The notes under the pieces were generated by a model. That model had not been told where the DNA came from and made no database searches. It saw nothing but the letters and a program-made list of their open reading frames with translations. Shown here in pieces: positions 736-63,917 of a stretch of 64,000 bases of DNA. Every line of letters begins with the position of its first letter. The first letter of the stretch is position 1. Origin of the DNA: Diogma glabrata. Lineage: Eukaryota; Arthropoda; Insecta; Diptera; Cylindrotomidae. The translations under genes and the position numbers were made by a program. The stretch spans positions 46,442 to 110,441 of the forward strand of contig CAVNZG010001043.1 of assembly GCA_963693315.1 (NCBI GenBank). The letters are read 5' to 3'.

Positions 736-866
736 ATTCAGTAAATTATTTGTGATATAACATCACCCCGATGGAAAATCTCCCATCAAGAATAATATAA
801 GAACTGAATCTAAAAAATTATGGTGCAAATTATGAAACTTTTTGCAATCCATACAATTTTAGAGCG

Positions 867-944
867 ATCTAGTTTCGAACCAATGAGAAAATTTTTAAAC
901 TTTAAAAAAAGTTTATCATTCTCATCAGGGCTAGCCGACTAGAT
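867..944 (-). ncRNA. Hammerhead ribozyme motif, minus-strand copy 1
   Basis: This is the reverse complement of the plus-strand motif: stem III pairs 867-872 with 939-944, and the cleavage C is at 937 on the minus strand. The first half of the insertion is inverted, so its ribozymes read leftward. The gypsy element itself is also read leftward. Confidence 0.8.
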
Positions 945-1323
945 AAACTCTACCAAAAAATGTTAACGCTAATGATTATAAACCAAAAATTGGGCTACAA
1001 CTCTAGCGAAGTGTAAAAACAAAAAATTTACATAAACATACATTTAATAAATTCAGGTTTAGTCAATTAATTTCTCTGGTGATCACTGTTTTGTTATACT
1101 CTAGATTTTCTAGTATTGAATAACAAAATTGTATCTGTGAGAAGAAGATGACTAGTCTTCACTTGTGTCTATTGACACATGATCAACAATTAATTCAGTA
1201 AATTATTTGTGATATAACATCACCCCGATGGAAAATCTCCCATCAAGAATAATATAAGAACTGAATCTAAAAAATTATGGTGCAAATTATGAAACTTTTT
1301 GCAATCCATACAATTTTAGAGCG

Positions 1324-1401
1324 ATCTAGTTTCGAACCAATGAGAAAATTTTTAAACTTTAAAAAAAGTTTATCATTCTCATCAGGGCTAGCCGACTAGA
1401 T
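1324..1401 (-). ncRNA. Hammerhead ribozyme motif, minus-strand copy 2
   Basis: Identical to 867-944; cleavage C at 1394. Confidence 0.8.
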
Positions 1402-1780
1402 AAACTCTACCAAAAAATGTTAACGCTAATGATTATAAACCAAAAATTGGGCTACAACTCTAGCGAAGTGTAAAAACAAAAAATTTACATAAACATACAT
1501 TTAATAAATTCAGGTTTAGTCAATTAATTTCTCTGGTGATCACTGTTTTGTTATACTCTAGATTTTCTAGTATTGAATAACAAAATTGTATCTGTGAGAA
1601 GAAGATGACTAGTCTTCACTTGTGTCTATTGACACATGATCAACAATTAATTCAGTAAATTATTTGTGATATAACATCACCCCGATGGAAAATCTCCCAT
1701 CAAGAATAATATAAGAACTGAATCTAAAAAATTATGGTGCAAATTATGAAACTTTTTGCAATCCATACAATTTTAGAGCG

Positions 1781-1858
1781 ATCTAGTTTCGAACCAATGA
1801 GAAAATTTTTAAACTTTAAAAAAAGTTTATCATTCTCATCAGGGCTAGCCGACTAGAT
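1781..1858 (-). ncRNA. Hammerhead ribozyme motif, minus-strand copy 3
   Basis: Identical to 867-944; cleavage C at 1851. Confidence 0.8.
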
Positions 1859-2237
1859 AAACTCTACCAAAAAATGTTAACGCTAATGATTATAAACCAA
1901 AAATTGGGCTACAACTCTAGCGAAGTGTAAAAACAAAAAATTTACATAAACATACATTTAATAAATTCAGGTTTAGTCAATTAATTTCTCTGGTGATCAC
2001 TGTTTTGTTATACTCTAGATTTTCTAGTATTGAATAACAAAATTGTATCTGTGAGAAGAAGATGACTAGTCTTCACTTGTGTCTATTGACACATGATCAA
2101 CAATTAATTCAGTAAATTATTTGTGATATAACATCACCCCGATGGAAAATCTCCCATCAAGAATAATATAAGAACTGAATCTAAAAAATTATGGTGCAAA
2201 TTATGAAACTTTTTGCAATCCATACAATTTTAGAGCG

Positions 2238-2315
2238 ATCTAGTTTCGAACCAATGAGAAAATTTTTAAACTTTAAAAAAAGTTTATCATTCTCATCAGG
2301 GCTAGCCGACTAGAT
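2238..2315 (-). ncRNA. Hammerhead ribozyme motif, minus-strand copy 4
   Basis: Identical to 867-944; cleavage C at 2308. Confidence 0.8.
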
Positions 2316-2694
2316 AAACTCTACCAAAAAATGTTAACGCTAATGATTATAAACCAAAAATTGGGCTACAACTCTAGCGAAGTGTAAAAACAAAAAATTT
2401 ACATAAACATACATTTAATAAATTCAGGTTTAGTCAATTAATTTCTCTGGTGATCACTGTTTTGTTATACTCTAGATTTTCTAGTATTGAATAACAAAAT
2501 TGTATCTGTGAGAAGAAGATGACTAGTCTTCACTTGTGTCTATTGACACATGATCAACAATTAATTCAGTAAATTATTTGTGATATAACATCACCCCGAT
2601 GGAAAATCTCCCATCAAGAATAATATAAGAACTGAATCTAAAAAATTATGGTGCAAATTATGAAACTTTTTGCAATCCATACAATTTTAGAGCG

Positions 2695-2772
2695 ATCTAG
2701 TTTCGAACCAATGAGAAAATTTTTAAACTTTAAAAAAAGTTTATCATTCTCATCAGGGCTAGCCGACTAGAT
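2695..2772 (-). ncRNA. Hammerhead ribozyme motif, minus-strand copy 5
   Basis: Identical to 867-944; cleavage C at 2765. It lies in the partial unit next to the orientation switch. Confidence 0.8.
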
Positions 2773-3017
2773 AAACTCTACCAAAAAATGTTAACGCTAA
2801 TGATTATAAACCAAAAATTGGGCACAGATACAATTTTGTTATTCAATACTAGAAAATCTAGAGTATAACAAAACAGTGATCACCAGAGAAATTAATTGAC
2901 TAAACCTGAATTTATTAAATGTATGTTTATGTAAATTTTTTGTTTTTACACTTCGCTAGAGTTGTAGCCCAATTTTTGGTTTATAATCATTAGCGTTAAC
3001 ATTTTTTGGTAGAGTTT

Positions 3018-3095
3018 ATCTAGTCGGCTAGCCCTGATGAGAATGATAAACTTTTTTTAAAGTTTAAAAATTTTCTCATTGGTTCGAAACTAGAT
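3018..3095 (+). ncRNA. Hammerhead ribozyme motif, plus-strand copy 1
   Basis: All conserved core elements are present in order. Stem III is ATCTAG 3018-3023 paired with CTAGAT 3090-3095. The cleavage triplet G-T-C ends at C3025. Stem I is the self-complementary GGCTAGCC 3026-3033. CTGATGA is at 3034-3040. Stem II starts with the G3041-C3085 pair and GAA/TTC, with a possible TGA/TCA extension across a 4-nt bulge, and has an apical AAACTTT/AAAGTTT hairpin (3048-3065). GAAA is at 3086-3089. Stem III is the open end, so the topology is type III. Stem I would have only a 2-nt loop in a monomer, so a dimeric fold through the palindromic octamer is likely. Cleavage is expected 3' of C3025. Activity is not shown by sequence alone. 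Confidence 0.82.
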
Positions 3096-3474
3096 CGCTC
3101 TAAAATTGTATGGATTGCAAAAAGTTTCATAATTTGCACCATAATTTTTTAGATTCAGTTCTTATATTATTCTTGATGGGAGATTTTCCATCGGGGTGAT
3201 GTTATATCACAAATAATTTACTGAATTAATTGTTGATCATGTGTCAATAGACACAAGTGAAGACTAGTCATCTTCTTCTCACAGATACAATTTTGTTATT
3301 CAATACTAGAAAATCTAGAGTATAACAAAACAGTGATCACCAGAGAAATTAATTGACTAAACCTGAATTTATTAAATGTATGTTTATGTAAATTTTTTGT
3401 TTTTACACTTCGCTAGAGTTGTAGCCCAATTTTTGGTTTATAATCATTAGCGTTAACATTTTTTGGTAGAGTTT

Positions 3475-3552
3475 ATCTAGTCGGCTAGCCCTGATGAGAA
3501 TGATAAACTTTTTTTAAAGTTTAAAAATTTTCTCATTGGTTCGAAACTAGAT
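3475..3552 (+). ncRNA. Hammerhead ribozyme motif, plus-strand copy 2
   Basis: Exact repeat of the motif at 3018-3095; predicted cleavage 3' of C3482. Confidence 0.8.
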
Positions 3553-3931
3553 CGCTCTAAAATTGTATGGATTGCAAAAAGTTTCATAATTTGCACCATA
3601 ATTTTTTAGATTCAGTTCTTATATTATTCTTGATGGGAGATTTTCCATCGGGGTGATGTTATATCACAAATAATTTACTGAATTAATTGTTGATCATGTG
3701 TCAATAGACACAAGTGAAGACTAGTCATCTTCTTCTCACAGATACAATTTTGTTATTCAATACTAGAAAATCTAGAGTATAACAAAACAGTGATCACCAG
3801 AGAAATTAATTGACTAAACCTGAATTTATTAAATGTATGTTTATGTAAATTTTTTGTTTTTACACTTCGCTAGAGTTGTAGCCCAATTTTTGGTTTATAA
3901 TCATTAGCGTTAACATTTTTTGGTAGAGTTT

Positions 3932-4009
3932 ATCTAGTCGGCTAGCCCTGATGAGAATGATAAACTTTTTTTAAAGTTTAAAAATTTTCTCATTGGTTCG
4001 AAACTAGAT
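3932..4009 (+). ncRNA. Hammerhead ribozyme motif, plus-strand copy 3
   Basis: Same core and stems as at 3018; predicted cleavage 3' of C3939. Confidence 0.8.
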
Positions 4010-4388
4010 CGCTCTAAAATTGTATGGATTGCAAAAAGTTTCATAATTTGCACCATAATTTTTTAGATTCAGTTCTTATATTATTCTTGATGGGAGATTT
4101 TCCATCGGGGTGATGTTATATCACAAATAATTTACTGAATTAATTGTTGATCATGTGTCAATAGACACAAGTGAAGACTAGTCATCTTCTTCTCACAGAT
4201 ACAATTTTGTTATTCAATACTAGAAAATCTAGAGTATAACAAAACAGTGATCACCAGAGAAATTAATTGACTAAACCTGAATTTATTAAATGTATGTTTA
4301 TGTAAATTTTTTGTTTTTACACTTCGCTAGAGTTGTAGCCCAATTTTTGGTTTATAATCATTAGCGTTAACATTTTTTGGTAGAGTTT

Positions 4389-4466
4389 ATCTAGTCGGCT
4401 AGCCCTGATGAGAATGATAAACTTTTTTTAAAGTTTAAAAATTTTCTCATTGGTTCGAAACTAGAT
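4389..4466 (+). ncRNA. Hammerhead ribozyme motif, plus-strand copy 4
   Basis: Same core and stems as at 3018; predicted cleavage 3' of C4396. Confidence 0.8.
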
Positions 4467-4845
4467 CGCTCTAAAATTGTATGGATTGCAAAAAGTTTCA
4501 TAATTTGCACCATAATTTTTTAGATTCAGTTCTTATATTATTCTTGATGGGAGATTTTCCATCGGGGTGATGTTATATCACAAATAATTTACTGAATTAA
4601 TTGTTGATCATGTGTCAATAGACACAAGTGAAGACTAGTCATCTTCTTCTCACAGATACAATTTTGTTATTCAATACTAGAAAATCTAGAGTATAACAAA
4701 ACAGTGATCACCAGAGAAATTAATTGACTAAACCTGAATTTATTAAATGTATGTTTATGTAAATTTTTTGTTTTTACACTTCGCTAGAGTTGTAGCCCAA
4801 TTTTTGGTTTATAATCATTAGCGTTAACATTTTTTGGTAGAGTTT

Positions 4846-4923
4846 ATCTAGTCGGCTAGCCCTGATGAGAATGATAAACTTTTTTTAAAGTTTAAAAATT
4901 TTCTCATTGGTTCGAAACTAGAT
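4846..4923 (+). ncRNA. Hammerhead ribozyme motif, plus-strand copy 5
   Basis: Same core and stems as at 3018; predicted cleavage 3' of C4853. It lies in the last, partial unit. Confidence 0.8.
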
Positions 4924-4992
4924 CGCTCTAAAATTGTATGGATTGCAAAAAGTTTCATAATTTGCACCATAATTTTTAGATTCAGTTCTTAT

Positions 4993-5005
4993 AAAAGATT
5001 CTTTA
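4993..5005. repeat. 13-bp target-site duplication, right copy
   Basis: Exact second copy of 723-735. LTR sequence resumes immediately afterwards and continues to 5105. Confidence 0.95.
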
Positions 5006-6130: not shown

Positions 6131-7720
6131 TTAACAGAAAGCTATTCCATAGGTATTTATTCTTTTCCAAATTTTTATGTCTTTGGCATGGAAAGTCCCG
6201 ATGGACTTACCATCCAAATTTGTACATTTGTACAATACGTTACCAACCCTGCTTTCTATAATGGCTGGTAGAAATTTCGGAGCCAGCTTGGCCGAAAATT
6301 TGTTTGCTGCATCACTTAGGTGATGTTGTCGTACCAAGACTCGTTGTTGTGGCTCGAATATTCGAGGTCGCGTACGCAAATTGTAGTGTTGTTGAGACTT
6401 CGCAAAAGCTGTTTCCATATATTTTTTTATGCAGGTTCTAACGATCGCTAATTGGTCTGTGTGATCCAGGTCCATGTCAATTGGTTCACCAAGACTATGT
6501 AAAGTTCGAAGAGTTGAATAAGTTTTGCCATCAGATACCGGATGTTGACCAAACAGCACGTAGTATGGAGAATGAAGTGTTGTGCTATGTACTGCCGAAC
6601 GCAGCGCAAAAGCTATATCTCCCAGATGAGAATCCCACGTATTATGCATACCTTTTATATAAGATCTAATCGCAGCTAATATAGACCTGTTGACCCTTTC
6701 CGAAGCGTTACTTTGAGGACTGTAGACTCCAGTTTTAATATGTGTAATGTTGCATTCTGACAGTAGTTTTTGAAAAGAATTACTGAGGAACTGTTTACCA
6801 TTGTCGCTGTGTACAAACTCTGGAACACCATAAGTTAGAAAAACTTCATTTCGCAGAAATGTATTCACAGAAGGTGAAGTAGCATTTCTGAGTGGTTTAA
6901 TTAATACAAATTTTGACAAATGATCAAGTACAATCAGAAGAACAGTATTCCCAGATTTTGATCTGGGATACGGACCCAAAAAATCAATATATATACGCTG
7001 CCATGGTCTATCTGTTATAAATCGGGATTGCATTGGTGGACGCAATATCTGATTTGTTGCCTTTGATTGTTTGCAGACATCACAAAACACGACATAGTCA
7101 TGAGCTTGGGATGCCATGCCCGGCCAGTAGTAGAGACGCCGAAGACCCACCAAGGTCTTCTTTACCCCTCCATGAGCAGCTATACAATTGTCGTGATGTT
7201 CCTTGATCAATTTAATAGTTAAAGGTTTTGGTATCCAAAGTTTCCACACAGGCAAATCGTTAGGTACTGCATCAGCTTTAGGTTCTATACGCATGTATAG
7301 CTTACCATCCAATTGTTTCACCATTGGAAAATCTTGGGGAGACAATTGTACTTTGGCTATCATATCAGTGTACTCATGGTGCCGATAACTTTCATCATCT
7401 ATTTTAATTGTGTCATCAATATGAGCGAGTGCTTCAGCAAATTCTTCAGACGTGTCGTCATGTATACGAGACAGAGCATCAGGTACTACGTTTTGGGTCC
7501 CCTTACTATGTATAATAGAAAAATCCATATGTTGGAGCTTTAAACTCCATCTAGCTAACCGACCACTCAAGTCTTTTTGTGACATCAACCACTTTAGACT
7601 TGAATGATCGGTCACAATAGTAAATTTGTGACCCTCCACGTAGGCTCTGAATTTCTTCACGCTGAGAATTGCTGCCAGACACTCAAGCTCAGACACTTTG
7701 ACATAAAAGCTATCGGACAC
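6131..7720 (-). pseudogene. Gypsy pol, RNase H tail and integrase
   Basis: This is a 529-codon frame. It opens inside RNase H (VSELECLAAI, then TDHSSLKWLM near residues 38-47). The integrase zinc-binding HHCC region follows at about 173-220 (EHHDNCIAAHGG ... FCDVCKQ). The DDE core is complete: IDFLGPYPRS, VHSDNGKQFL and NASERVNRS supply D, D and E. The C-terminal region ends near the 3' UTR. The integrase itself looks intact, but it is out of frame with the upstream RT because of a small deletion near 7700, so the polyprotein cannot be made whole. It acts in nuclear integration of the cDNA. Confidence 0.88.
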
Positions 7721-7977
7721 TCATGGCCTTCATCGTCCAGTTGGTACAGTACACTTCCTACACCCGTGATGCTTGCATCACATCTGATGAAAAATTCTTT
7801 TTCATCATCTGGGTTAATTAAAACTGGAGCTACTGTTAAAAGATGTTTTAAATTATTAAACGCAGTTCGAGGTTCATCAGTCCATCTCAGTCGTTTGGGA
7901 CCTTTTTTCAGAAGATCTGTTATAGGAGAAACAACGCTTGCATAGTTAGGTATGAAACGTTGATACCATCCTGCCAT
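7657..7977 (-). pseudogene. Gypsy pol, RT connection and RNase H start
   Basis: This 106-codon piece carries the thumb/connection signature MAGWYQRFIPNY and the first RNase H catalytic segment (FFIRCDASITGVGSVLYQ). Both are typical of Metaviridae pol between the RT palm and integrase. It is joined upstream and downstream by frame changes. At about 7700 roughly a dozen codons between CPIAFMSK and VSELECLA are missing compared with family members, and the loss shifts the frame. Confidence 0.85.
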
Positions 7978-9316
7978 ACCTAATAACTGACGAATCTGCT
8001 TGACAGTTGTTGGAGCTGGCCATGTGTTCCTCGAATGTTGAGGACACTACCAGTAGGTCGTCTAAATAGACGAAGACACTTTCATGATACTTGTGAGGTA
8101 TCACTTTATGCATCAGCCGACACATTGTCTGGGGAGCATTGCACAAACCAAAAGGCATAACCTTGAATTGGTACAATGGTCGTCCAGGCACTGTGAAGGC
8201 TGTTTTATCTCGAGATGTTTCTGGCAAAGGAATTTGCCAGAACGCATCTTTGAGATCAATACTGCTTATGTATCTCGTACTATTTAGGCGGCCCAACAAG
8301 CCATCGATTAATGGAAGTGGGTAAGCATCCTTTTTGGTCAGTGCGTTGACACGTCTTGAATCTAAACATAAACGATTCTTTCCAGAAGATTTTTGTATTA
8401 AAACCACTGGCGAGCACCAAGAACTGTCAGAACTCTCTTCGATCACCCCTAATTGAAGCATACGGTCTAATTCGGCATAAATCTTTTGTTGAACTGCCGG
8501 CGATGTGGGGTAATGCCTCTGTTTCACAGGTGCACTATCCCCAACATCGATGACATGTTCAACCAAAGATGTTTTACCGAGACCTAATACCTCAAAAGAA
8601 GGGAAAGAATCCTTGTCGTTCTCCAGTTCCTGTAGCTGGTCAGGGCTTAGATCATGAGTTAAGTTGTCATTAGATTCAGTTAGTGTCAATTCACTGACAA
8701 ATAAAGGAGTGATACCAAATTCCCTCCAAAAATCGATGCCCAGGTAGAGTTCCTCATGCAGACTTGGGACAACATGAAAGCGAAAGGATTTCGATGAGCC
8801 ATTGAAATTTATTGGAACATCCACATAACCTAAAATATTATTACGGGTTCCATCTGTAGTGCGGATGGCAGAAAACATTTTGTTGTAGGTTATGCCGGCG
8901 CTCCTTAATAATTCTAGGGAATTTCTTCCCAGAATACTGATAGAGGCTCCACTATCTAGAAGTCCATAAACTTTTTTATTAAAAATGTTTATATAAAGGT
9001 GTGGCCTAGGATCATTTACCCGATAAATGATCGAAGAAACACACGCTTTATTTAAGAGTTTTCTTTTTTTGAAGTAATTGCGCGAACGTTCGATACGTTT
9101 TATAGATCTATTTTTCCGACGGACCGGAAATGGTGTTGATAATGAAGCAGATTTGTTTATTTTGGGTGTTGTGGTGGCAAAAGATCTTCTTCGGTGGTGG
9201 TTGATACATCTCTCAGACGACCTCGCGGACTCAAAGATGGGTTTGGGGGCACAGCACGCGAGTTCTGTACTCCCGCCCGGGAGTTTAAATGAAGCGATGG
9301 ATGACAGTTGGTGCAT
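7946..9316 (-). pseudogene. Gypsy pol, protease and reverse transcriptase
   Basis: The frame starts overlapping the end of gag in a different frame, the usual gag-pol frameshift layout. The aspartic protease motif LLDSGASISILG is near residues 115-126. RT follows with SPVVLIQKSSGKNRLCLDSR, IDLKDAFWQIPL and the catalytic FVYLDDLLVVSS. After FEEHM near 8035 the frame shifts and about 65 codons of RT thumb are absent: sequence jumps to the WPAPTTVKQIRQLLG-like segment that belongs just before GMAGWYQRF. This copy is therefore defective even though its LTRs are nearly identical. Confidence 0.87.
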
Positions 9317-14673: not shown

Positions 14674-15507
14674 TGTTTTTAGTTATTAATTAACGCGATT
14701 GATATTTTTGCCAGTTTTATTTTTTTATTTTTATTTCTAACGCGGCATTTCAGAAATACAAAGGTGTATGTCTTAAACATTTCCCATTTGTAACACGATC
14801 ACTGAGAACTTCTTTTCTAGCACATTTTTTTTGTTTAGAACAATTACCGACTGGCTAACGATTTTAAAATTTTTTCGAGGTGCAACCCGTACTAATTAAA
14901 AATATCAATCGATTTTTGTATTGATGGAAAATCAAACAACACTTTCCTTAGATTTTAATTTAATTTTTGAAATCCAAAATTTGACCTCCTAAATTTTAAC
15001 AATTTTTTTGTTTTAATATCAAAATCCAACTGAACCAAAATTAAACAAAATGTGCAGTATAAATATTATTTTTGATTTATGCTAAAGAAGGACAAAAGTT
15101 GTTTCATTATTACTCGTCCCTCTCATTAGTTTCTCTTTTGAAACCGACAACAAGTTTTATTAAAGCGCCAAAGAATAGAGAACATTTACGAGAGAATATC
15201 ATTTGTATTGTTTTTTCATTCTAACGCAAAAAATAAAGAAAAGTTATAATGCTGTTATTTCTTTATATTTGTATTTCATTTGTTTTGATTTGTATTAACA
15301 TATATTAAATCAAAACAATGAAGAAAATGTAATAATAACAACATCCAGACACAGATGGTGCGTAATCAGAAAAATACGGGTTGGATGGGTGATCAAAAGA
15401 TTCTTTATTTGTGCAACTGATTATTTAATTGAGCGTTAAGCGAAAAACTTATTTAATGCAAATCAGGTAATAACGTAGTTAGAGAATGCAGAATTGTGAT
15501 CACAACA
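14674..15507 (-). mobile_element. Gypsy 5' LTR copy (uninterrupted)
   Basis: Matches 1-735 plus 5006-5105 at about 99%. It ends at the same base (…AACA), giving a TG start on the minus strand. It contains the single, unoccupied target AAAAGATTCTTTA at 15395-15407. Its left edge is unresolved and may be further left. To the right it abuts an RTE fragment, so the gypsy element inserted into that older RTE copy. Confidence 0.7.
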
Positions 15508-16217
15508 GCACATCAAATCTTTCTTCTCAGCCTCTCTTGAAACATTCATATGTTTGGTTTTATCATAGTTAATTTGAAGACCAATTTTTGCACCACTAGC
15601 ACCACTCTCAAGCAACTTGAAAGTCTCACTCATAACAGCTTCACTTCGGCCGAGGATGACAACATCATCAGCGGACGCGATCATTTGTACTGAGTTTATT
15701 GACAAGATATTGTTATTAATCAGTAGTTTCTTTTGACGGCACACATATTCCAAGGCTAAATTAAAAAGTATAGGAGAGATAGCATCACCTTGTCTTAATC
15801 CGGAGTCGACTTTAAAAAACTTTGATATTTCATTTTCTACTCGTACACAGCATTGAGAGTTCTGTTCTGTCATTTTGCATAGTGATACCAGTTAACCAGG
15901 GATTTCCATTGACACCAGAGCAGACCATAGAGTCTCTCGTTCGAGAGAGTCGTAGGCCTGCCTGAAATCAATGAAAAGTTGGTACACAGGTATGTTGAAC
16001 TCTCGACAATTTTCCAAAATCATCCTTATCGAGTGGTGGTACCTCGGCCCCGCCGGAAGTCACACTGATATTCTCCAAACAGTTGTTCAGCAAAATAATT
16101 GATTTTTGATAGCAAAATTTATGAAAAGGTCGTATATGCTGTGCAGAGTATAGCGATTCCTCTGTAGCTTGCACATTGTAGGCGATTAACTTTTTATGGA
16201 TTGGTATCAGCATCGCT
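15508..16217 (-). pseudogene. RTE-type LINE ORF2 fragment, RT palm (piece 3 of the old minus-strand copy)
   Basis: Minus-strand translation gives IPIHKK, an RT block ending in FIDFRQAYD-like sequence, then VDSGLRQGDAISPILFNLAL and the catalytic region ASADDVVILGRS, where the usual YADD motif reads SADD. Several frame changes. It continues directly from the piece at 17696-17949 once the copy at 16218-17695 is removed, because the flanking CAGCATCGCT is duplicated. The gypsy LTR cuts it at 15508. Confidence 0.8.
16208..16217. repeat. 10-bp target-site duplication, left copy
   Basis: CAGCATCGCT recurs exactly at 17696-17705 on the other side of the RTE insertion. Confidence 0.85.
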
Positions 16218-24126: not shown

Positions 24127-26130
24127 TTAACATATATAATGAATTATATAATTTAGCACGACATGTGACAGTTTGGCTATACTTGCAGCATTCGTTGGCC
24201 AAAAACGTTGTCGTACTATTGAGACTAACTGTGTTGGACCAACATGTAAATTCTTTTCATGCTCATATCTAAATATAAGTGTAGTAATGTGATGATTTTT
24301 TGGAAGGAGGATTTGATGTTTGGAGTCATATGGGATATTTGCGTTTTTGATTCGGCCACCACCTTGAATTATATTATTGACATCTAAAAATGGTGTAAGA
24401 GAATGTATGTTACTTTTTTCGTTCACCATTCCTGTTTTCTTAATACTGGTTATTTCAGGTTTAAAGTGTTCAGACTGGACGATTTTGACAATGACCACTA
24501 AAGCTCGATCAAACTCATCAATTGTTAACACGCCTGTTTGCTTAATTTGATTGCGGCAATTATGGATAAACCTTATACAGAATGCCGTTACTCGAATTAA
24601 TTTTCTATATGAGCTATATTTGACTAAAGGAAAAAATTGTTGGTTATTTTGAAGAAAATTAATGGTTGTTTCCTTTGGTTTCAATTCAAGCAAGGTTGGA
24701 TCAATAAAGGTTTCGGGAACTGAGGGAATATAATTATTTCTTAATAATATCTCAGGCCCGTTCCACCATAATGTATTAGGTTTTAGATCGTTTGGCATTA
24801 TACCACGTGAAATGATATCTGCTGGGTTATCAGTTGTATTTATGTATTGCCCTACACAGTTTTCGGTCAGCTCCAGAATTTCAGTGACCCGATTTGCTAC
24901 AAATATTTTTAGTTGATATGGTGGTAGTTTTATCCAGTGTAACACAATAGTGGAATCCGACCAAAGGAATATTTTCTCGAATTTTATTTCTAGCGATTCT
25001 AGAACTGGATTTAGCAATTTACTTAATAAATGAGCAGCACAAAGCTCCAAACGTGGAATAGTGATAGTTTTTAGAGGTGCCACTCTGGATTTACTACACA
25101 ATAATGTAACTTGTGTGTTTTGAAATGCATCAATTGACTTAATATAAAAACAAGCTCCATATGCCTTTTCAGATGCATCAGCGAAACCATGTAGTTCTAA
25201 AGTGGAGGGTATAGAACTAGTGACACACCGAGGTATTTGAATATTAGGTATACAATTTAATTGATTTTTAAAATTAGACCACTTCAACTGCATTTCTATG
25301 GGTACTGGTGTATCCCAATTTGATTTTAATTTCCAAAGGGACTGAATCATGATTTTTGCAGTTACAAGAATTGGAGAAATGAGTCCCATTGGATCATATA
25401 TTTTCAGAACGTCGGAGAGAATTGATCGTTTGGTACAATTTTTACTGGTAACTGATAGGTTTTTTAAATTAAAACTAAGTACATCTTCGTTGGGTTTCCA
25501 TTCGACTCCTAAGGTCTTAATGGATTCATGAGAACTGGTGTCTTGGCTATCCAAACTTTCGCGAAGCTCATTAGGTATTGTGTTTAGAATATCTTTTGAA
25601 TTGGAACTCCATTTATGAAGCTCAAATTGCCCAATTTTTAGAAGGCTAATTAACTCATTTTTTATTTCTAAGGCTTCAGATAAACTATTTGCTCCTGTGA
25701 GAACATCGTCAACATAAAAGCCACGTTTTAGTATAGTAGCAGCTAGTGGAAAACGTGAATTTTCATTATCAGCCAACTGTTGTAAAGTTCGAGTGGCAAG
25801 GTACGGCGCTGAAGATGTGCCGTATGTGATAGTTGTTAGCTCACAAGTTTGAACGGGATCAGATGGAGCAAATCTCCACAATATTCTTTGCAACCTAGAG
25901 TTTGAAGGATTAATTAGAATCTGCCGATACATTTTACAAATGTCAGCAGTGAGTACGTATCTATACTTCCGAAATCTCAATACAATTTTAAAAAGATTTT
26001 GTTGGACGGTGGGACCAACTAACATTGCATCATATAATGATAAATTTGAAGACCCCTTGGCAGAAGCATCAAATACTACACGCAATTTCGTAGTAGAACT
26101 ACTAGGTTTCAATACTGCATGGTGAGGCAT
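24127..26130 (-). pseudogene. BEL/Pao pol: RT, RNase H and integrase start
   Basis: 667 codons. RT: PHHAVLKPSSSTTKLRVVF, ADICKMYRQILI, GTSSAPYLATRTL and the catalytic FYVDDVLTG. RNase H: LHGFADASEKAYGACFYI, IPRLELCAAHLLSKL and FLWSDSTIVLHWI. The integrase zinc region begins (LLPKNHHITTLIF, NLHVGPTQLV) but the frame ends directly after it, so the DDE core is lost. An in-frame TAA at its upstream edge separates it from the protease frame. Confidence 0.88.
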
Positions 26131-48385: not shown

Positions 48386-48558
48386 CTAAACTTCATAAAT
48401 TTCAAACTTGTACTTATCGCAAAAAACATCAGAAACACAGGATCCTGATCTTATACTGCCAGCTGGACAATAACATCCAGCGGAACACGGGACAGTATTT
48501 GCATAACAATACCTCTCTACGCCACAAGAGTTGTACACGTCACCCGAAGTACATGAAG
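48386..48558 (-). CDS. Terminal exon of the TIL-like gene
   Basis: Starts after an AG acceptor (ASCTSGDVYNSCGVERYC...), encodes a variant domain with all eight cysteines, and reads through the donor position into CDKYKFEIYEV and a TAG stop at 48386-48388. Divergence from the other units begins where the donor would have been, which marks it as the true last exon. Confidence 0.75.
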
Positions 48559-50931
48559 CTAAAATTATTGACAATATTATAATTAATGTACTTTATGTTG
48601 ATGGAGGTTGGTGGAGTTGATGGAGGTGTTCATGGATCCAACTTTCTTTGTTGTTTTCATTATAGGATGCAGGAAAAAAGTTCTTAAACTTCATATTATC
48701 GTGCTTACCTTGGCAAGCTGCATCAGAAATACAGGATCCTGATCTTATACTGCCAGCTGGACAATAACATCCAGCGGAACACGGGACAGTATTTGCATAA
48801 CAATACCTCTCTACGCCACAAGAGTTGTACACGTCACCCGAAGTACATGAAGCTAAAATTATTGACAATATTATAATTAATGTACTTTATGTTGATGGAG
48901 GTTGGTGGAGTTGATGGAGGTGTTCATGGATCCAACTTTCTTTGTTGTTTTCATTATAGGATGCAGGAAAAAAGTTCTTAAACTTCATATTATCGTGCTT
49001 ACCTTGGCAAGCTGCATCAGAAATACAGGATCCTGATCTTATACTGCCAGCTGGACAATAACATCCAGCGGCACACGGGCCAGCAGATTGTCCAGAACAA
49101 GTCCTCTCTAAGCTACAAGCGCTGTACACGTCACCCGAAGTACATGAAGCTAAAATTATTGACAATATTATAATTAATGTACTTTATGTTGATGGAGGTT
49201 GGTGGAGTTGATGGAGGTGTTCATGGATCCAACTTTCTTTGTTGTTTTCATTATAGGATGCAGGAAAAAAGTTCTTAAACTTCATATTATCGTGCTTACC
49301 TTGGCAAGCTGCATCAGAAATACAGGATCCTGATCTTATACTGCCAGCTGGACAGTAACACCCAGCGGCACACGGGCCAGCAGATTGTCCAGAACAAGTC
49401 CTCTCTAAGCTACAAGCGCTGTACACGTCACCCGAAGTACATGAAGCTAAAATTATTGACAATATTATAATTAATGTACTTTATGTTGATGGAGGTTGGT
49501 GGAGTTGATGGAGGTGTTCATGGATCCAACTTTCTTTGTTGTTTTCATTATAGGATGCAGGAAAAAAGTTCTTAAACTTCATATTATCGTGCTTACCTTG
49601 GCAAGCTGCATCAGAAATACAGGATCCTGATCTTATACTGCCAGCTGGACAGTAACATCCAGCGGCACACGTGCCAGCAGATTGTCCAGAACAAGTCCTC
49701 TCTAAGCTACAAGCGCTGTACACGTCACCCGAAGTACATGAAGCTAAAATTATTGACAATATTATAATTAATGTACTTTATGTTGATGGAGGTTGGTGGA
49801 GTTGATGGAGGTGTTCATGGATCCAACTTTCTTTGTTGTTTTCATTATAGGATGCAGGAAAAAAGTTCTTAAACTTCATATTATCGTGCTTACCTTGGCA
49901 AGCTGCATCAGAAATACAGGATCCTGATCTTATACTGCCAGCTGGACAGTAACATCCAGCGGCACACGTGCCAGCAGATTGTCCAGAACAAGTCCTCTCT
50001 AAGCTACAAGCGCTGTACACGTCACCCGAAGTACATGAAGCTAAAATTATTGACAATATTATAATTAATGTACTTTATGTTGATGGAGGTTGGTGGAGTT
50101 GATGGAGGTGTTCATGGATCCAACTTTCTTTGTTGTTTTCATTATAGGATGCAGGAAAAAAGTTCTTAAGCTTCATATTATCGTGCTTACCTTGGCAAGC
50201 TGCATCAGAAATACAGGATCCTGATCTTATACTGCCAGCTGGACAATAACATCCAGCGGCACACGGGCCAGCAGATTGTCCAGAACAAGTCCTCTCTAAG
50301 CTACAAGCGCTGTACACGTCACCCGAAGTACATGAAGCTAAAATTATTGACAATATTATAATTAATGTACTTTATGTTGATGGAGGTTGGTGGAGTTGAT
50401 GGAGGTGTTCATGGATCCAACTTTCTTTGTTGTTTTCATTATAGGATGCAGGAAAAAAGTTCTTAAACTTCATATTATCGTGCTTACCTTGGCAAGCTGC
50501 ATCAGAAATACAGGATCCTGATCTTATACTGCCAGCTGGACAGTAACATCCAGCGGCACACGTGCCAGCAGATTGTCCAGAACAAGTCCTCTCTAAGCTA
50601 CAAGCGCTGTACACGTCACCCGAAGTACATGAAGCTAAAATTATTGACAATATTATAATTAATGTACTTTATGTTGATGGAGGTTGGTGGAGTTGATGGA
50701 GGTGTTCATGGATCCAACTTTCTTTGTTGTTTTCATTATAGGATGCAGGAAAAAAGTTCTTAAACTTCATATTATCGTGCTTACCTTGGCAAGCTGCATC
50801 AGAAATACAGGATCCTGATCTTATACTGCCAGCTGGACAGTAACATCCAGCGGCACACGTGCCAGCAGATTGTCCAGAACAAGTCCTCTCTAAGCTACAA
50901 GCGCTGTACACGTCACCCGAAGTACATGAAG
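48386..50931 (-). CDS. TIL-like eight-cysteine multidomain protein, nine-exon array (5' end not found)
   Basis: Nine exons on the minus strand each encode one cysteine-rich domain with spacing C-x8-C-x5-C-x6/7-C-x3-C-x-C-x9-C-x5-C. The CxxxCxC core (CAAGCYC) followed by PAG..R.G.C is the hallmark of TIL (trypsin inhibitor-like) domains, here with eight instead of ten cysteines. Exons are preceded by ATTTTAG acceptors and followed by AAG|GTAAGC donors. Both junctions are phase 1, so domains join in frame as ...DAACQ-ASCTSG.... Downstream to upstream exons: 48386-48558, 48709-48852, 49003-49149, 49300-49446, 49597-49743, 49894-50040, 50191-50337, 50488-50634, 50785-50931. A signal-peptide exon must lie to the right but I could not identify it. 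Likely a secreted serine-protease inhibitor; inhibition is not shown. Confidence 0.75.
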
Positions 50932-50947
50932 CTAAAATTATTGACAA
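48559..50947. repeat. 297-bp tandem repeat (exon plus intron)
   Basis: Eight units of 294-297 bp plus the terminal unit, nearly identical in both exon (147 bp) and intron (150 bp). The few differences are scattered, for example GGGCCAG versus GTGCCAG, giving P or T just before the fourth cysteine. Intron identity as high as exon identity means recent unequal crossover or conversion. Confidence 0.95.
48709..48852 (-). CDS. Penultimate, variant TIL exon
   Basis: 144 bp. Shares the YNSCGVERYCYANTVPC loop with the terminal exon but the DAACQ end and GTAAGC donor with the upstream seven, so it looks like a recombinant between the two types. Confidence 0.75.
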
Positions 50948-51049
50948 TATTATAATTAATGTAGTTTAAGTTCTGATGTGTTCTGATGCCTAGAAACACT
51001 CTATATACAATGTTATCATATATATATTAGCAAAAGAATTCTTGAAAAA

Positions 51050-58709: not shown

Positions 58710-60564
58710 ACTTCGGTCTGGGTTAAGGATTTTGATATTGTTTTCGGCAAAAACTTTTATGCGGACATGGTTTTTAGTTAAACTCAGCAAACTACTCAAA
58801 AACCTCTCCATTTAGTGTTTCGAGAAAATATTACAAAATCACAAATTCATATATCTTTCAAAATTCCAAAAACTTTGTAAAAAATAAATAAAATCAAACT
58901 TTTTCCAAAATCCTAAAAATATTCCAAAAATTATTACAAAATCAACGATTAAGCTTTTTTCAAAAATTCTAAAAATATTGCAAAAATTATACAAAATCAA
59001 AAATTGAAACTTTTTTCAAAATTCCAAATATTCCAAAAATAAGAATAAAATCAAATATCTAAACTTTTTCTAAATTCTAATAATATTCCAAAAATTCTTA
59101 AAAATTCGAAAATTGAACCTTATTTCAAAATTCTAAAAATATATATAAAATTAAAAAATTTTTTTTTAAATTCTAAAAACATTCCAAAAATTGGAATAAA
59201 ATCAAATATTTAAACTTTTTCTAAATTCCAATAATATTCCAAAATTTCTTAAAAATTCAAAAATTCAAACTTTTTCCAAAACTAAAAATATTGCAAAAAT
59301 TATAACAATATCAAAAATTGAAACTTTTTCCAAAATTTCAAAAATTGTAATAAAATCAAAAATTTAAAATTTTTTAAAATTCTAAAAATATTCCAAAAAT
59401 TCTTACAAAATCAAAAGTTGAAACTTTTTCAAAATTCCAAAAATATTCAAAAACTATAACAAATTCAAAAATGTCCATGCCCAATTTAATTTTCTTTTAC
59501 TTTTTCAGCAAACTATTCAAAAACCTTCAATTTGGCGATTCGAGAAAATATTACAAGGTCACAAATTCATATTTCTCTCGAAATTCCAAAAATATTGTAA
59601 AAATTATAATAAAATCAAACTTTTTTCAACATTCTAAAATAATTCCAAAAATTATTACAAAATCAAAAATACATACTTTTTTCAAAATTCCAAAAATATT
59701 TCAAAAACTGTAACAAATTCAAAAATTTCCATATCCAATTTCATTTTCAATTACATTTACGTCATAAAAACAGCTACATTTCTTTTGCCAAAAAATTGGC
59801 TAAAAAAATAAATGAAATCATTTTTTGACACGCTTGACATTATTTTTTTGACAAACTTATAATGCCATAATTATCTATAATAGTAATATATTTTCACGTC
59901 ATACAAATTATTTATTTTATTTTTTTCCAAAAAATTGGGTAAAAAATAAATAAAGATCTTTCTTTTGACAAACTTGACAACATTTTTTTGATAAACTTAA
60001 AGTGCCATAGTTCTCAATAATAATAATAAAATCATTTCAAACAAAATTTTAATTTAATTTTTTTTTCCGAAAAATTGGGTAAAAAAATAAATAAAAATCT
60101 TTCTTTTGACACACTTGACAACATTTTTTGACAAACTTATAATGCAATAATCTAGATTTTGGTCTCACATACCAATCCCGACCATCAAAATTTCTCGAAA
60201 TTTAATGTTCCTACTCGTTATCACTTAAAATGAAAGTTTTTTAAGCAAAAAATATGCAAATTTCCTTGTTTTGACACACATAATGATTTTTTTGACACCC
60301 TTCCGGTACAGTTATCGAACATAGCATCCTTTCGGACCTGTCTCTTGAGTATACCTATTTTTAGAAAACAAAATTTTTGAAATCCCTCCAGTGGTTTTCC
60401 CTGCAGCGTAGGTAATGACGGCCGGCCGGCAGACAGACATACATTTTTTTTTTGCTTTTTTAGAATCAGTAGGTCTTAAAACGTCGAGAAATGCGAAAAA
60501 AAGTGGGGGTAAGAATTTCACTTTGAGCTCATGAATGTAATACTTAGGTCTTTCAGACCGAAGT
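58710..60564. mobile_element. Non-autonomous element candidate with ACTTCGGTCTG ends
   Basis: ACTTCGGTCTG at 58710-58720 and CAGACCGAAGT at 60554-60564 are exact inverted copies bounding one higher-order unit. A second unit, 60696-62665, has the same ends with one change on the left. Confidence 0.5.
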
Positions 60565-60567
60565 AAT
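60150..60567. repeat. End module of the satellite block, copy 1
   Basis: Runs from ATCTAG/CTCACATACCAATCCCGACC to CAGACCGAAGTAA and includes CGGCCGGCCGGCAGACAGAC. A 69-codon minus-strand frame inside (FLDVLRPTDSKKAKKKC) recurs in the other copies but with shifted ends, so it is not a gene. Confidence 0.75.
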
Positions 60568-62252
60568 TTTTGGTGAGGCGATGCAATGTAATTTATATAA
60601 AGAATTACATTTTTAATTTAACACGAAAAATAAGAACTTAAAACTATATGGAAAAATATGGAGGGGCTGAAATTTCACAGCTCTGAGATATCAAGACTTC
60701 GGTATGGGTTAAGAATTTTGATATAGTTTTCGGCAAAAAACTTTTATGAGGACATGGTTTTTAGTTTTGGGTTGCGATGTACATCAAACATAACTCTTTG
60801 TTAAAGTACAAGTATTTTTTATCTCTGTTTAAAAATTTATTACAAAGCTAACACGAAACATCAATACGTTGCCGGAAAATTATAGTCGAAATTCCAAAAA
60901 TATTGTTACATTAAATAAAATCAAACTTTTTCAAGAATATTCCAAATATTAGTATAAAATCAAATATTTAAATTTTTTCTAAATTCCAATAATATTCCAA
61001 AAATTCTTAAAAATTCAATTCAAAATCCAATTCTAAAAATATTGCAAAAATTAGTACAAAATTATAATAATATCAAGAATTACAAATTTTTCAAAATCCT
61101 AGAAATATTTCAAAAGTTCTTACAAAATCAAAAATTAAAACTTTTGCTGAAATTCTAAAAATATTGCAAAAATGATTACAAGATCAAAAATACAAACTTT
61201 TTCAAAATTCTAAAAATATTCTAAATATTAGAATGAAATCAAATATTTAAACTTTTTCTAAATTACAATAATATTCCAAAAATTCTTAAAAATTCAAACT
61301 TTTCCAAAATTCTAAAAATATTGCAAAAATTATTACAAAATCAAAAATTGAAAGTTCTTTCAAAATTCCAAAAATTATAATAAAATCAAAAATTAAAAAT
61401 TTTCAAGATCCTAAAAATATTTCAAAAATTCTTACAAAATCAAAACTTAAAACTTTTGCCGAAATTCTAAAAATATTGCAAGAGTTATTACAAAATCAAT
61501 AATACAAACTTTTTCAAAATTCCAAAAATATTTCAAAAACTATAACAAATTCAAAAATACCCATGTCCAATTTCATTTTAAATTACATTTACGTCATAAA
61601 AACAGCTACTTTTTTTTCCCAAAAAATTGGCTAAAAAAATAAATGAAATCAGTTTTTGACACGCTTGACATTATTTTTTTGACAAACTTATAATGCCATA
61701 ATTATCTATAATAATAATATATTTTCACGTCATACAAATTATTTATTTTATTTTTTTCCAAAAAATTGCTAAAAAAATAAATGAAATCATTTTTTGACAC
61801 GCTTGACATTATTTTTTTGACAAACTTATAATGCCATAATTATCTATAATAGTAATATATTTTCACGTCATACAAATTATTTATTTTATTTTTTTCCAAA
61901 AAATTGGGTAAAAAAATAAATAAAGATCTTTCTTTTGACAAACTTGACAACATTTTTTTGATAAACTTATAGTGCCATAGTTCTCAATAATAATAATAAA
62001 ATCATTTCAAACAAAATTTTAATTTAATTTTTTTTTCCGAAAAATTGGGTAAAAAATAAATAAAAATCTTTCTTTTGACACACTTGACAACATTTTTTGA
62101 CAAACTTATAATGCCATAATTCTCAATAATAATAATAAAATTTCATTTTAAACAAACACATTTATTTTTTTTCCAAAAAATTAGGTAAAAAACTAAATAA
62201 AAATCTTTTGACACACTTGACAACTTTTTTTTGAAAAACTTATAATGCAATA

Positions 62253-62667
62253 ATCTAGTTTTTGATCTCACATACCAATCCCGACCATCAAGATTTCTCC
62301 AAATTTAATGTTCCTACTCGTAATCACTTAAAATGAACGTTTTTTAAGCCAAAAATATGAAAATTTGCTATTTTTGACACACATATTGATTTTTTGACAC
62401 ACTTCCGGTACGGTTATCAAACACAGCGTCCTTTCAGACCTGTCCCTTGAGTATACCTATTTTCAAGAAAAAAAATTTTTGAAATCCTTCCAGCGGTTTT
62501 CCATGCAGCGTAGGTAAGACGGCCGGCCGGCAGACAGACATACATTTTTTTTTTGCTTTTTTAGAATCAGGAGGTCCTAAAACGACGAGAAATGTCAAAA
62601 AAAGTGGGGGTAAGAATTTCACTTTGAGTTCATGAACTTAATACTTAGGCCTTTCAGACCGAAGTAA
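62253..62667. repeat. End module of the satellite block, copy 2
   Basis: About 90% like copy 1 by eye, ending CAGACCGAAGTAA. Confidence 0.75.
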
Positions 62668-63498
62668 TTATTACAAAATCAAAAAATTGAAAAATTTAAT
62701 AAAATCAAAAATTCCAAATTTTTTTAAATTCTAAATATATTCCAAAAATTCTTACAAAATCAAAGATTAAAACCTTTTTCAATAATTCTAAAAATATTGC
62801 AAAAATTATAACAATATGAAAAATTGAAACTTTTTTCAAAATCCCAAAAATATTCCAAAAATTAGAATAAAATTAAATATTTAAACTTTTTCTAAATTCC
62901 AATCAAATTCCAAAAACTCTTAAAAATTCAAACTTTTTCCAAAATTCTAAAATATTGCAAAAATTATTACAAAATCAAAAAATGAATTTTTTTTCAAAAT
63001 TCCAAAAATTATAATAAAATCAAAAATTTAAATTTTTCAAAATTCTAAAAATATTCCAAAAATTCTTACAAAATCATATAATGCCATACATAATTCTCAA
63101 TAATAATAATAAAATTCTTTTCAAACAAACAATTTTATATTTTTCCACAAAATTGGGTAAAATATTAAATAAAAATCTTTTTTTTTGACACACTTGACAA
63201 CATTTTTTTGTCAAACTTATAATGCCATAATTCTCAATAATAATAAAACCGAAGTAATTTCATTCTAAACAAACAATTTTATTTTTTTCCCAAAAATTAG
63301 GTAAAAAATAAATAAAAATCTTTCTTTTGACACACTTTACAATATTTTTTTGACAAACTTTTAATGCCATAATTCTCAATAATAATAATAAAATTTCAAT
63401 TAATTATATTTTTTTTCCAAAAAATTAGGTAAAAAAATAAATAAAAATCTTTCTTTGACACACTTGACAACATTTTTTTGACAAAATTATAATGAAAT

Positions 63499-63917
63499 AA
63501 TCTAGTTTTTGATCTCACATACCAATCCCTACCATCAAAACTTCTCCAAATTTAATGTTCCTACTCGTAATCACTTAAAATGAACGTTTGTTAAGCAAAA
63601 AATATGAAAATTTGCTATTTTTTACAGACAAAATGATTTTTTGACACATTTCCGGTACAGTTATCGAACACAGCGTCCTTTAGGACCTGTCCCTTGTGAA
63701 TACCTATTTTTAGAAAAAAAAATTTGAAATCCCTCCAGCAGTTTTGCCTGCAGCGTAGGTAATGACGGACGGCCGGCCGGCAGACACACACATTTTTTTT
63801 TTTTTGCTTTTTTAGAATCAGTAAGTCCTAAAACGTCGAGAAATGCCAAAAAAAGTGGGGGTAAGAATTTCTCTTTGAGCTCATGAATGTAATACTTAGG
63901 TCTTTCAGACCGAAGTA
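63499..63917. repeat. End module of the satellite block, copy 3
   Basis: Same module again; the unit before it is shortened to about 1.25 kb. Confidence 0.75.

Follow-up and report, generated by a model that had tools for sequence, protein, structure and literature searches.

The 64,000-nucleotide stretch of the Diogma glabrata genome analysed here (contig CAVNZG010001043.1; hereafter the window, to which coordinates refer) carries at 736-4992 a 4257-bp insertion made of tandem 457-bp units with a hammerhead ribozyme motif. We consider it quite probable that this is a retrozyme-like element of the kind that lacks long terminal repeats (non-LTR), the circular RNA of which was copied into two arms by Penelope-like machinery. 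The structure of the insertion and its relatives, their ends and target-site duplications (TSDs), the derivation of each from one template and a like anatomy in Penelope-like elements can be seen in the sequence itself; self-cleavage, the circular form and the identity of the enzyme are what these features would imply. The case is at its strongest and most useful in the rule of two arms and two start sites, which links the retrozyme to Penelope.

The insertion lies between two exact copies of a 13-bp target sequence, AAAAGATTCTTTA, at 723-735 and 4993-5005. The same 13-mer occurs a third time in the window, unoccupied, at 15395-15407, within a paralogous copy (14674-15508) of the flanks of the insert (735 bp at 99.3% identity and 101 bp at 98.0%); the original prediction of a 13-bp duplication with an empty site is thereby borne out. 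Because the paralogous copy lacks the insert, the insertion is probably younger than the duplication that produced that copy. The 457-bp units (29% GC) form two arms inverted relative to each other and pointing outwards, an inversion that had not been stressed before. The left arm (736-2823), antisense on the plus strand, comprises 4.6 units, has its outer end at a unit offset of about 407 and is identical to the unit at 2088 of 2088 positions. The right arm (2824-4992), in the sense orientation on the plus strand, comprises 4.75 units, ends at an offset of about 344 and is likewise identical save that a T6 run close to its end is one T short. The two meet at an inner junction (2811-2835) which would join the 5' ends of two presumed cDNA arms at unit offsets 145 and 1. 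The longest stop-to-stop run in tandem units is 42 codons, and the unit does not encode the reverse transcriptase (RT) and GIY-YIG endonuclease that mark an autonomous Penelope-like element. No LTR, primer-binding site (PBS) or polypurine tract (PPT) was noticed on reading the unit, no search having been aimed at these features.

Ten identical copies of a 78-nt hammerhead motif are present in the insertion, five on each strand. Those on the plus strand occupy 3018-3095, 3475-3552, 3932-4009, 4389-4466 and 4846-4923 (motifs 1 to 5), with cleavage predicted 3' of C3025, C3482, C3939, C4396 and C4853, respectively; those on the minus strand occupy 2695-2772, 2238-2315, 1781-1858, 1324-1401 and 867-944 (motifs 6 to 10), with predicted cleavage 3' of C2765, C2308, C1851, C1394 and C937. 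A descriptor for hammerheads of types I and III matches exactly these ten in the window, in agreement with the ten complete-core motifs and 457-bp monomers originally described. The type III core is complete (CUGANGA, GAA, A15.1-U16.1, C at H17 and an open stem III); stem III has 7 bp, and stem I is just the 8-nt palindrome GGCTAGCC, which forms 2-3 bp as a hairpin. The type I hammerhead is one defining feature of published animal retrozymes, and the descriptor finds no type I completion of the motif, only a type III one; it is because of this difference that we call the element retrozyme-like, a variant. In 30 Mb of first-order Markov sequence with the composition of the unit the loose descriptor gave 71 hits and an equally good motif arose once; in 20 Mb of random sequence with the composition of the window the figures were 23 and none. 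The estimated chance per unit, on both strands, is thus about 0.002 for a loose match and about 3e-5 for an equally good one, the latter value resting on a single hit. Neither the motif nor a generic short-stem version of it was found in a scan of viral contigs, a set in which records of this genome may have been omitted. Together, the sequence features support a type III hammerhead encoded by the unit.

The element is a dispersed family. A 35-mer from the hammerhead has 4159 exact copies (2128 + 2031) in the 1.33-Gb assembly, and one from the region of offset 408 has 3215 (1583 + 1632); the reversed controls gave none. A second subfamily, with tandem shifts of about 450-459 bp, shares the motif and differs in its consensus at 25 of 457 positions. 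We mapped 29 loci, the window insertion and the 28 best matches to its unit among the matches listed, taking the outermost match as the end (BLAST ends differ for several loci, for example L133, L135, L142 and L143). The 28 loci outside the window come from 29 stretches, one locus being represented by two of them. Both outer ends were resolved in 26 of them, that is, in all except L136, L141 and L149. One outer end fell at unit offsets 396-412 (about 408) in 26/26 resolved loci and the other at offsets 336-350 (about 345) in 23/26, and no locus (0/26) used the same site at both ends. The segment of about 60 nt between these presumed RT start sites is exemplified by 3168-3230 on the plus strand, where it is flanked by ATTCAGT and ACTGAAT, which are able to pair as read from the sequence, the pairing not having been computed. 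TSDs of 11-15 bp flank 25 of the 26 resolved loci, L140 being the exception, and when target sites are oriented by the 408 arm they show A at -3 in 23/25 and A at -2 in 18/25. The copies are therefore not the long local arrays without TSDs of a simple satellite, and the dispersed, mobile, non-coding tandem repeat of the original prediction is upheld. The longest arm, at L131m, consists of two blocks of units with a total length of about 8.4 kb. Arm lengths were not significantly correlated within loci (Spearman 0.33, p = 0.11; 25 loci).

The orientation of the arms was followed in the first 100 places of the hammerhead 35-mer in coordinate order (contig C1, 0-77 Mb), which form 60 clusters at 6 kb. 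All 18 two-stranded clusters run minus-then-plus, that is, they are divergent (p = 8e-6); of the others, 36 have one motif each and 6 have several, all on one strand. The perfect tandem identity, the dispersal of the family and the TSDs would also suit an origin at the DNA level, in which amplification of a satellite or extrachromosomal circle as DNA was followed by its insertion through break repair or a transposase. We regard this as very improbable: in place of terminal inverted repeats the insertions end at two distinct unit positions that lie on opposite strands, the arms are always divergent and never convergent, the inner junctions are scattered and differ in offset between loci, as for incomplete cDNA, and the same rule holds in a family that encodes an RT. 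Long identical inverted arms are also hard to assemble, and a false inversion or a collapsed repeat could be imagined; that the arrangement is such an artefact is nevertheless hardly credible, given that TSDs match on both sides in 25/26 loci, that the end rule is common to loci on several contigs and that the window contains an unoccupied paralogous site.

Each insertion apparently derives from one monomer template, as expected of a circular RNA, because its arms share private variants and the distance within a locus is low. Across 24 two-armed loci the distance between arm consensuses is 0.0007 per bp within a locus versus 0.0059 between loci (p = 5e-5 by permutation, the lowest value that 20000 shuffles allow). 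Thirteen rare variants are covered in both arms: six are present in every unit of both, such as T12C at L148 (2/2 minus units and 13/13 plus units), and seven in one arm or a subset of units. Moreover, an A/G polymorphism at 145 is mixed in 0/27 loci (L144 has a third base in 2/13 units), and a T indel at 230 is mixed in 1/28, L145, which also holds an older diverged fragment.

The 457-bp element and the Penelope-like copies of the same genome have their insertion anatomy in common. A search for GIY-YIG domains (150 hits scored of 4129 candidates) gave, among neighbours no more than 8 kb apart, 16 minus-plus, 0 plus-minus, 6 plus-plus and 2 minus-minus pairs. Five of the 6 plus-plus pairs belong to one head-to-tail array (L172, on G000:C598; spacing 2868-2869 bp) with one 832-aa open reading frame (ORF) containing an RT and, near the C-terminus, a GIY-YIG domain; for the other hits, the GIY-YIG domain is the sole basis for the label Penelope-like. 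Of ten minus-plus pairs whose outer flanks were compared, six shared a flank word of 12-15 bp that could be used, the other four having low-complexity ends, arms that extended beyond the fetched stretch, or unclear repeats. In 5/6 usable pairs the 3' end of one arm extends past that of the other, by 42, 41, 49, 48 and 43 nt; for the remaining pair (C4:92.76) the offset is ambiguous. The arm-end offset is thus 41-49 nt in the Penelope-like pairs versus about 60 nt in the retrozyme-like element. Penelope of Drosophila has inverted terminal parts with a short extension. Hammerhead-like sequence also accompanies the Penelope-like hits, 9/20 of whose 3' flanks carry CTGANGA-stem-GAAA with one extra nucleotide before stem II. 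By eye, the hammerhead-like cores in these flanks (L173-L192) form about three sequence families. As a separate observation, the head-to-tail array has the appearance expected if the Penelope RNA were likewise copied in circular form.

The original prediction had assigned the copying to a resident LINE (long interspersed nuclear element), and one way in which this could produce the inversion is twin priming, in which the LINE protein copies the RNA and a second, internal priming event yields the inverted part. TSDs of 11-15 bp and inverted parts occur with LINEs too, LINE-type RT or endonuclease domains are plentiful in the window, and one LINE family alone accounts for 31189 first-look candidates in the genome. 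Ordinary twin priming, however, inverts a portion of a single copy, the position varying from case to case, whereas here both arms hold whole repeated units and the second start lies near one site in 23/26 loci. A young LINE family had a neighbour within 8 kb at 0/116 scored loci, a weak control, as ordinary LINE inversion would not duplicate the C-terminal region searched; it speaks against the copying of circles by that LINE, not against twin priming generally. Because Penelope-like elements share the full anatomy and the LINE family lacks neighbours, Penelope machinery fits better than a LINE, and we find LINE-driven twin priming improbable. The divergent arms, the TSDs and the arm-end offset have accordingly led us to replace the LINE of the original prediction.

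The two-armed ends and the TSDs are consistent with a single circular RNA on which both cut 3' ends of the target primed reverse transcription, and the following sequence of events can be proposed. The units would be transcribed in the hammerhead sense and the encoded type III hammerhead would cut the RNA into 457-nt monomers, which would be closed into circles, by analogy with published retrozymes probably by a host tRNA ligase such as RtcB. A Penelope-like protein, presumably with RT and GIY-YIG endonuclease activities, would make a staggered cut, giving the TSD of 11-15 bp. One target 3' end would then prime reverse transcription at about 408 of the circle, and the other would prime on the same RNA, usually some 60 nt upstream, at about 345. 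Both cDNAs would travel round the circle, often several times, generating tandem units, and their far ends would be joined in the middle of the insert to leave two divergent arms between the duplicated target. We lean slightly towards a broader form of this proposal, in which Penelope double target priming on one circle, at preferred sites 40-60 nt apart, gives rise to palindromic tandem insertions and the 457-nt type III retrozyme parasitises this route.

Several observations weigh against the reading of the element as a circular RNA copied by Penelope-like machinery. With regard to the copying route, the second start lies elsewhere in 3/26 loci (L138, at 317; L140, at 104; and L155, at 268), and single-armed copies exist, for example L162, in which a TSD of 14 bp was recognised by eye. 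Insertions from one template could also arise from a linear multimer, provided that its source array is homogeneous. Run-off of the RT at the cleavage site was considered and rejected, as only 2/50 inner ends lie within 5 nt of the site versus 1.2 expected (25 two-armed loci, L131m left out); on the other hand, a circle predicts just such a lack of clustering of inner junctions there. A comparison of the 457-bp unit with 21 Penelope-like stretches returned short matches only (best E 0.002). With regard to the ribozyme, the modelled hammerhead fold has -9.3 kcal/mol versus -21.6 for the optimum, that is, it lies 12.3 kcal/mol higher; in the predicted optimum GAUGAGAA pairs with UUCUCAUU, burying the core, and the three stems are not the favoured fold. 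All 119 descriptor-complete hammerheads from viral contigs lie within 2.8 kcal/mol of their optimum, a control set (from 130 generic-pattern matches in 120 IMG/VR loci) whose pattern demands a canonical stem II and is therefore biased to good folders. A double hammerhead paired through the palindrome did not rescue the fold: its energy is -31.8, that of two monomers -43.2 and that of the free dimer -54.8. The original prediction had proposed a check against the Rfam covariance models, and the unit gave no hammerhead match in it: none was found at E<=10 in 2900-3500, nor above the cut-off genome-wide among the 68 of 148208 candidates scored. Read by eye, the best RF00008 hit in the genome, L158, is tRNA-like. 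Finally, between the two subfamilies 0/41 positions of core and stems differ versus 25/416 elsewhere, a difference that is not significant (p = 0.15).

These points give some weight to the view that the hammerhead is a chance or decayed look-alike, and that circles or multimers are made otherwise, for instance by the Penelope machinery itself or by splicing, so that the element would be a Penelope-mobilised tandem repeat with no working ribozyme. The unfavourable fold, the minimal stem I and the lack of an Rfam hit agree with it, as does the fact that L131m and L136 contain units in which U4 of the core has become G. We nonetheless consider it unlikely. A full core with a 7-bp stem III is rare by chance, at the per-unit rate given above, and the core is intact in both subfamily consensuses. 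Moreover, the Rfam silence says little, because only 1/20 control loci with hammerhead patterns (IMG/VR) reached the gathering score for a hammerhead. The pattern of variation also speaks for the ribozyme. In 49 loci we compared substitutions fixed in all units of an insertion, and so passed on by the template, with singletons: the core, cleavage site and stem I (20 positions) contain 0/65 fixed substitutions and 9/141 singletons (p = 0.06), two of these nine singletons being one change that occurs in two loci. Nine loci chosen by the exact hammerhead 35-mer were excluded from this comparison; with them, p is 0.018. When the 20-position mask is slid round the unit it is empty at 32 of 457 placements. 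Fixed changes in stem III keep G-U pairing in 3/4 cases (A196G, A200G and A272G, not A196T), with the caveat that A-to-G within an A-U pair always retains pairing. Selection on the ribozyme core is thus suggested, and not proven, by the distribution of substitutions. An older single unit, L214, has the hammerhead changes C17 to U and G5 to C.

The unit as a whole folds strongly: as a circle its fold has z -5.1 against dinucleotide shuffles (200 shuffles) and as a linear RNA z -6.3 in the sense and -5.2 in the antisense orientation (60 shuffles), with control folds ranging from -3.4 to +1.7 (26 folds at 13 places in the window, 25 shuffles each). Such folding is as expected of viroid-like and retrozyme circles. 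In plant retrozymes and viroids the circle hides the ribozyme through highly complementary sequence (PMC7229834), whereas here the motif itself would refold.

Several known systems resemble the element in part. With the metazoan non-LTR retrozymes (Cervera and de la Pena 2020, PMC7229834) it shares short, low-GC tandem hammerhead units, multimers, a highly self-paired RNA and TSDs longer than the 4 bp of plants; for those elements, which lack LTR features, a circular RNA intermediate and a Penelope driver have been proposed (PMC7229834). They differ in having type I hammerheads and RNAs of about 170-400 nt (PMC7229834), as against type III and 457 nt here, where we also find the 8-nt palindromic stem I, the two-armed divergent layout, which the consulted sections of PMC7229834 do not mention, and the two preferred starts. 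Plant LTR retrozymes resemble the element in their type III hammerhead, circular RNA cycle and ribozyme blocked by self-pairing, and are described with an LTR, PBS and PPT; their 4-bp TSD and size of 600-800 nt differ (PMC7229834). Penelope-like elements share with it the divergent arms, the TSD, the extended 3' end of one arm and tandem copies, but they encode an RT and a GIY-YIG domain and have no clear sequence in common with the unit. Type III hammerheads have been reported from delta-like RNAs of termite and toad and from termite and dipteran genomes (PMC7936874), and a review names insects among the holders of elements with type III hammerheads (PMC7761336). Type III alone is therefore not new in animals, and is less unusual there than originally supposed. 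The hammerheads in PMC7936874 have long helices I and II and are isolated genomic copies, in contrast to the minimal stem I and mobile tandem unit described here. Penelope has been proposed as the mover of animal retrozymes on the basis of co-occurrence and shared ribozymes (PMC7229834, PMC7761336). The two-arm rule is not stated in the portions of these two retrozyme papers that were compared, the Penelope literature lying outside that comparison.

Other features of the window include LTR-retrotransposon ORFs on the minus strand at 6131-9316 and 24127-26130 (RT, RNase H and integrase; Pao peptidase A17), ORFs for LINE-type RT or endonuclease in the interval 16.7-38.8 kb, a 297-bp tandem repeat at 48427-50972 (8.6 copies, 98% matches, 40% GC versus 32% for the window) and satellite-like, alternating AT-rich tandem blocks of about 55 bp and about 130-140 bp at 58860-63501. 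The COI gene of the assembly is 87% identical to a query of insect type. Elsewhere in the genome, near full-length COI matches at G000:C1:340085811 and 340103051 and at C5:20072995 and 20090897, with scores equal to that of contig C1788, are either recent nuclear mitochondrial copies or a misassembly.

If the element is indeed moved by Penelope-like machinery, its anatomy would be direct evidence for the autonomous partner of animal retrozymes. The copies of this one family record the integration reaction, including its start sites, the identity of the template and the target cut; they suggest how a circular RNA becomes DNA, and offer defined start sites for biochemistry. The element would also extend the retrozyme kind to a type III hammerhead with a minimal stem, one whose activity may be only transient or confined to a dimer.

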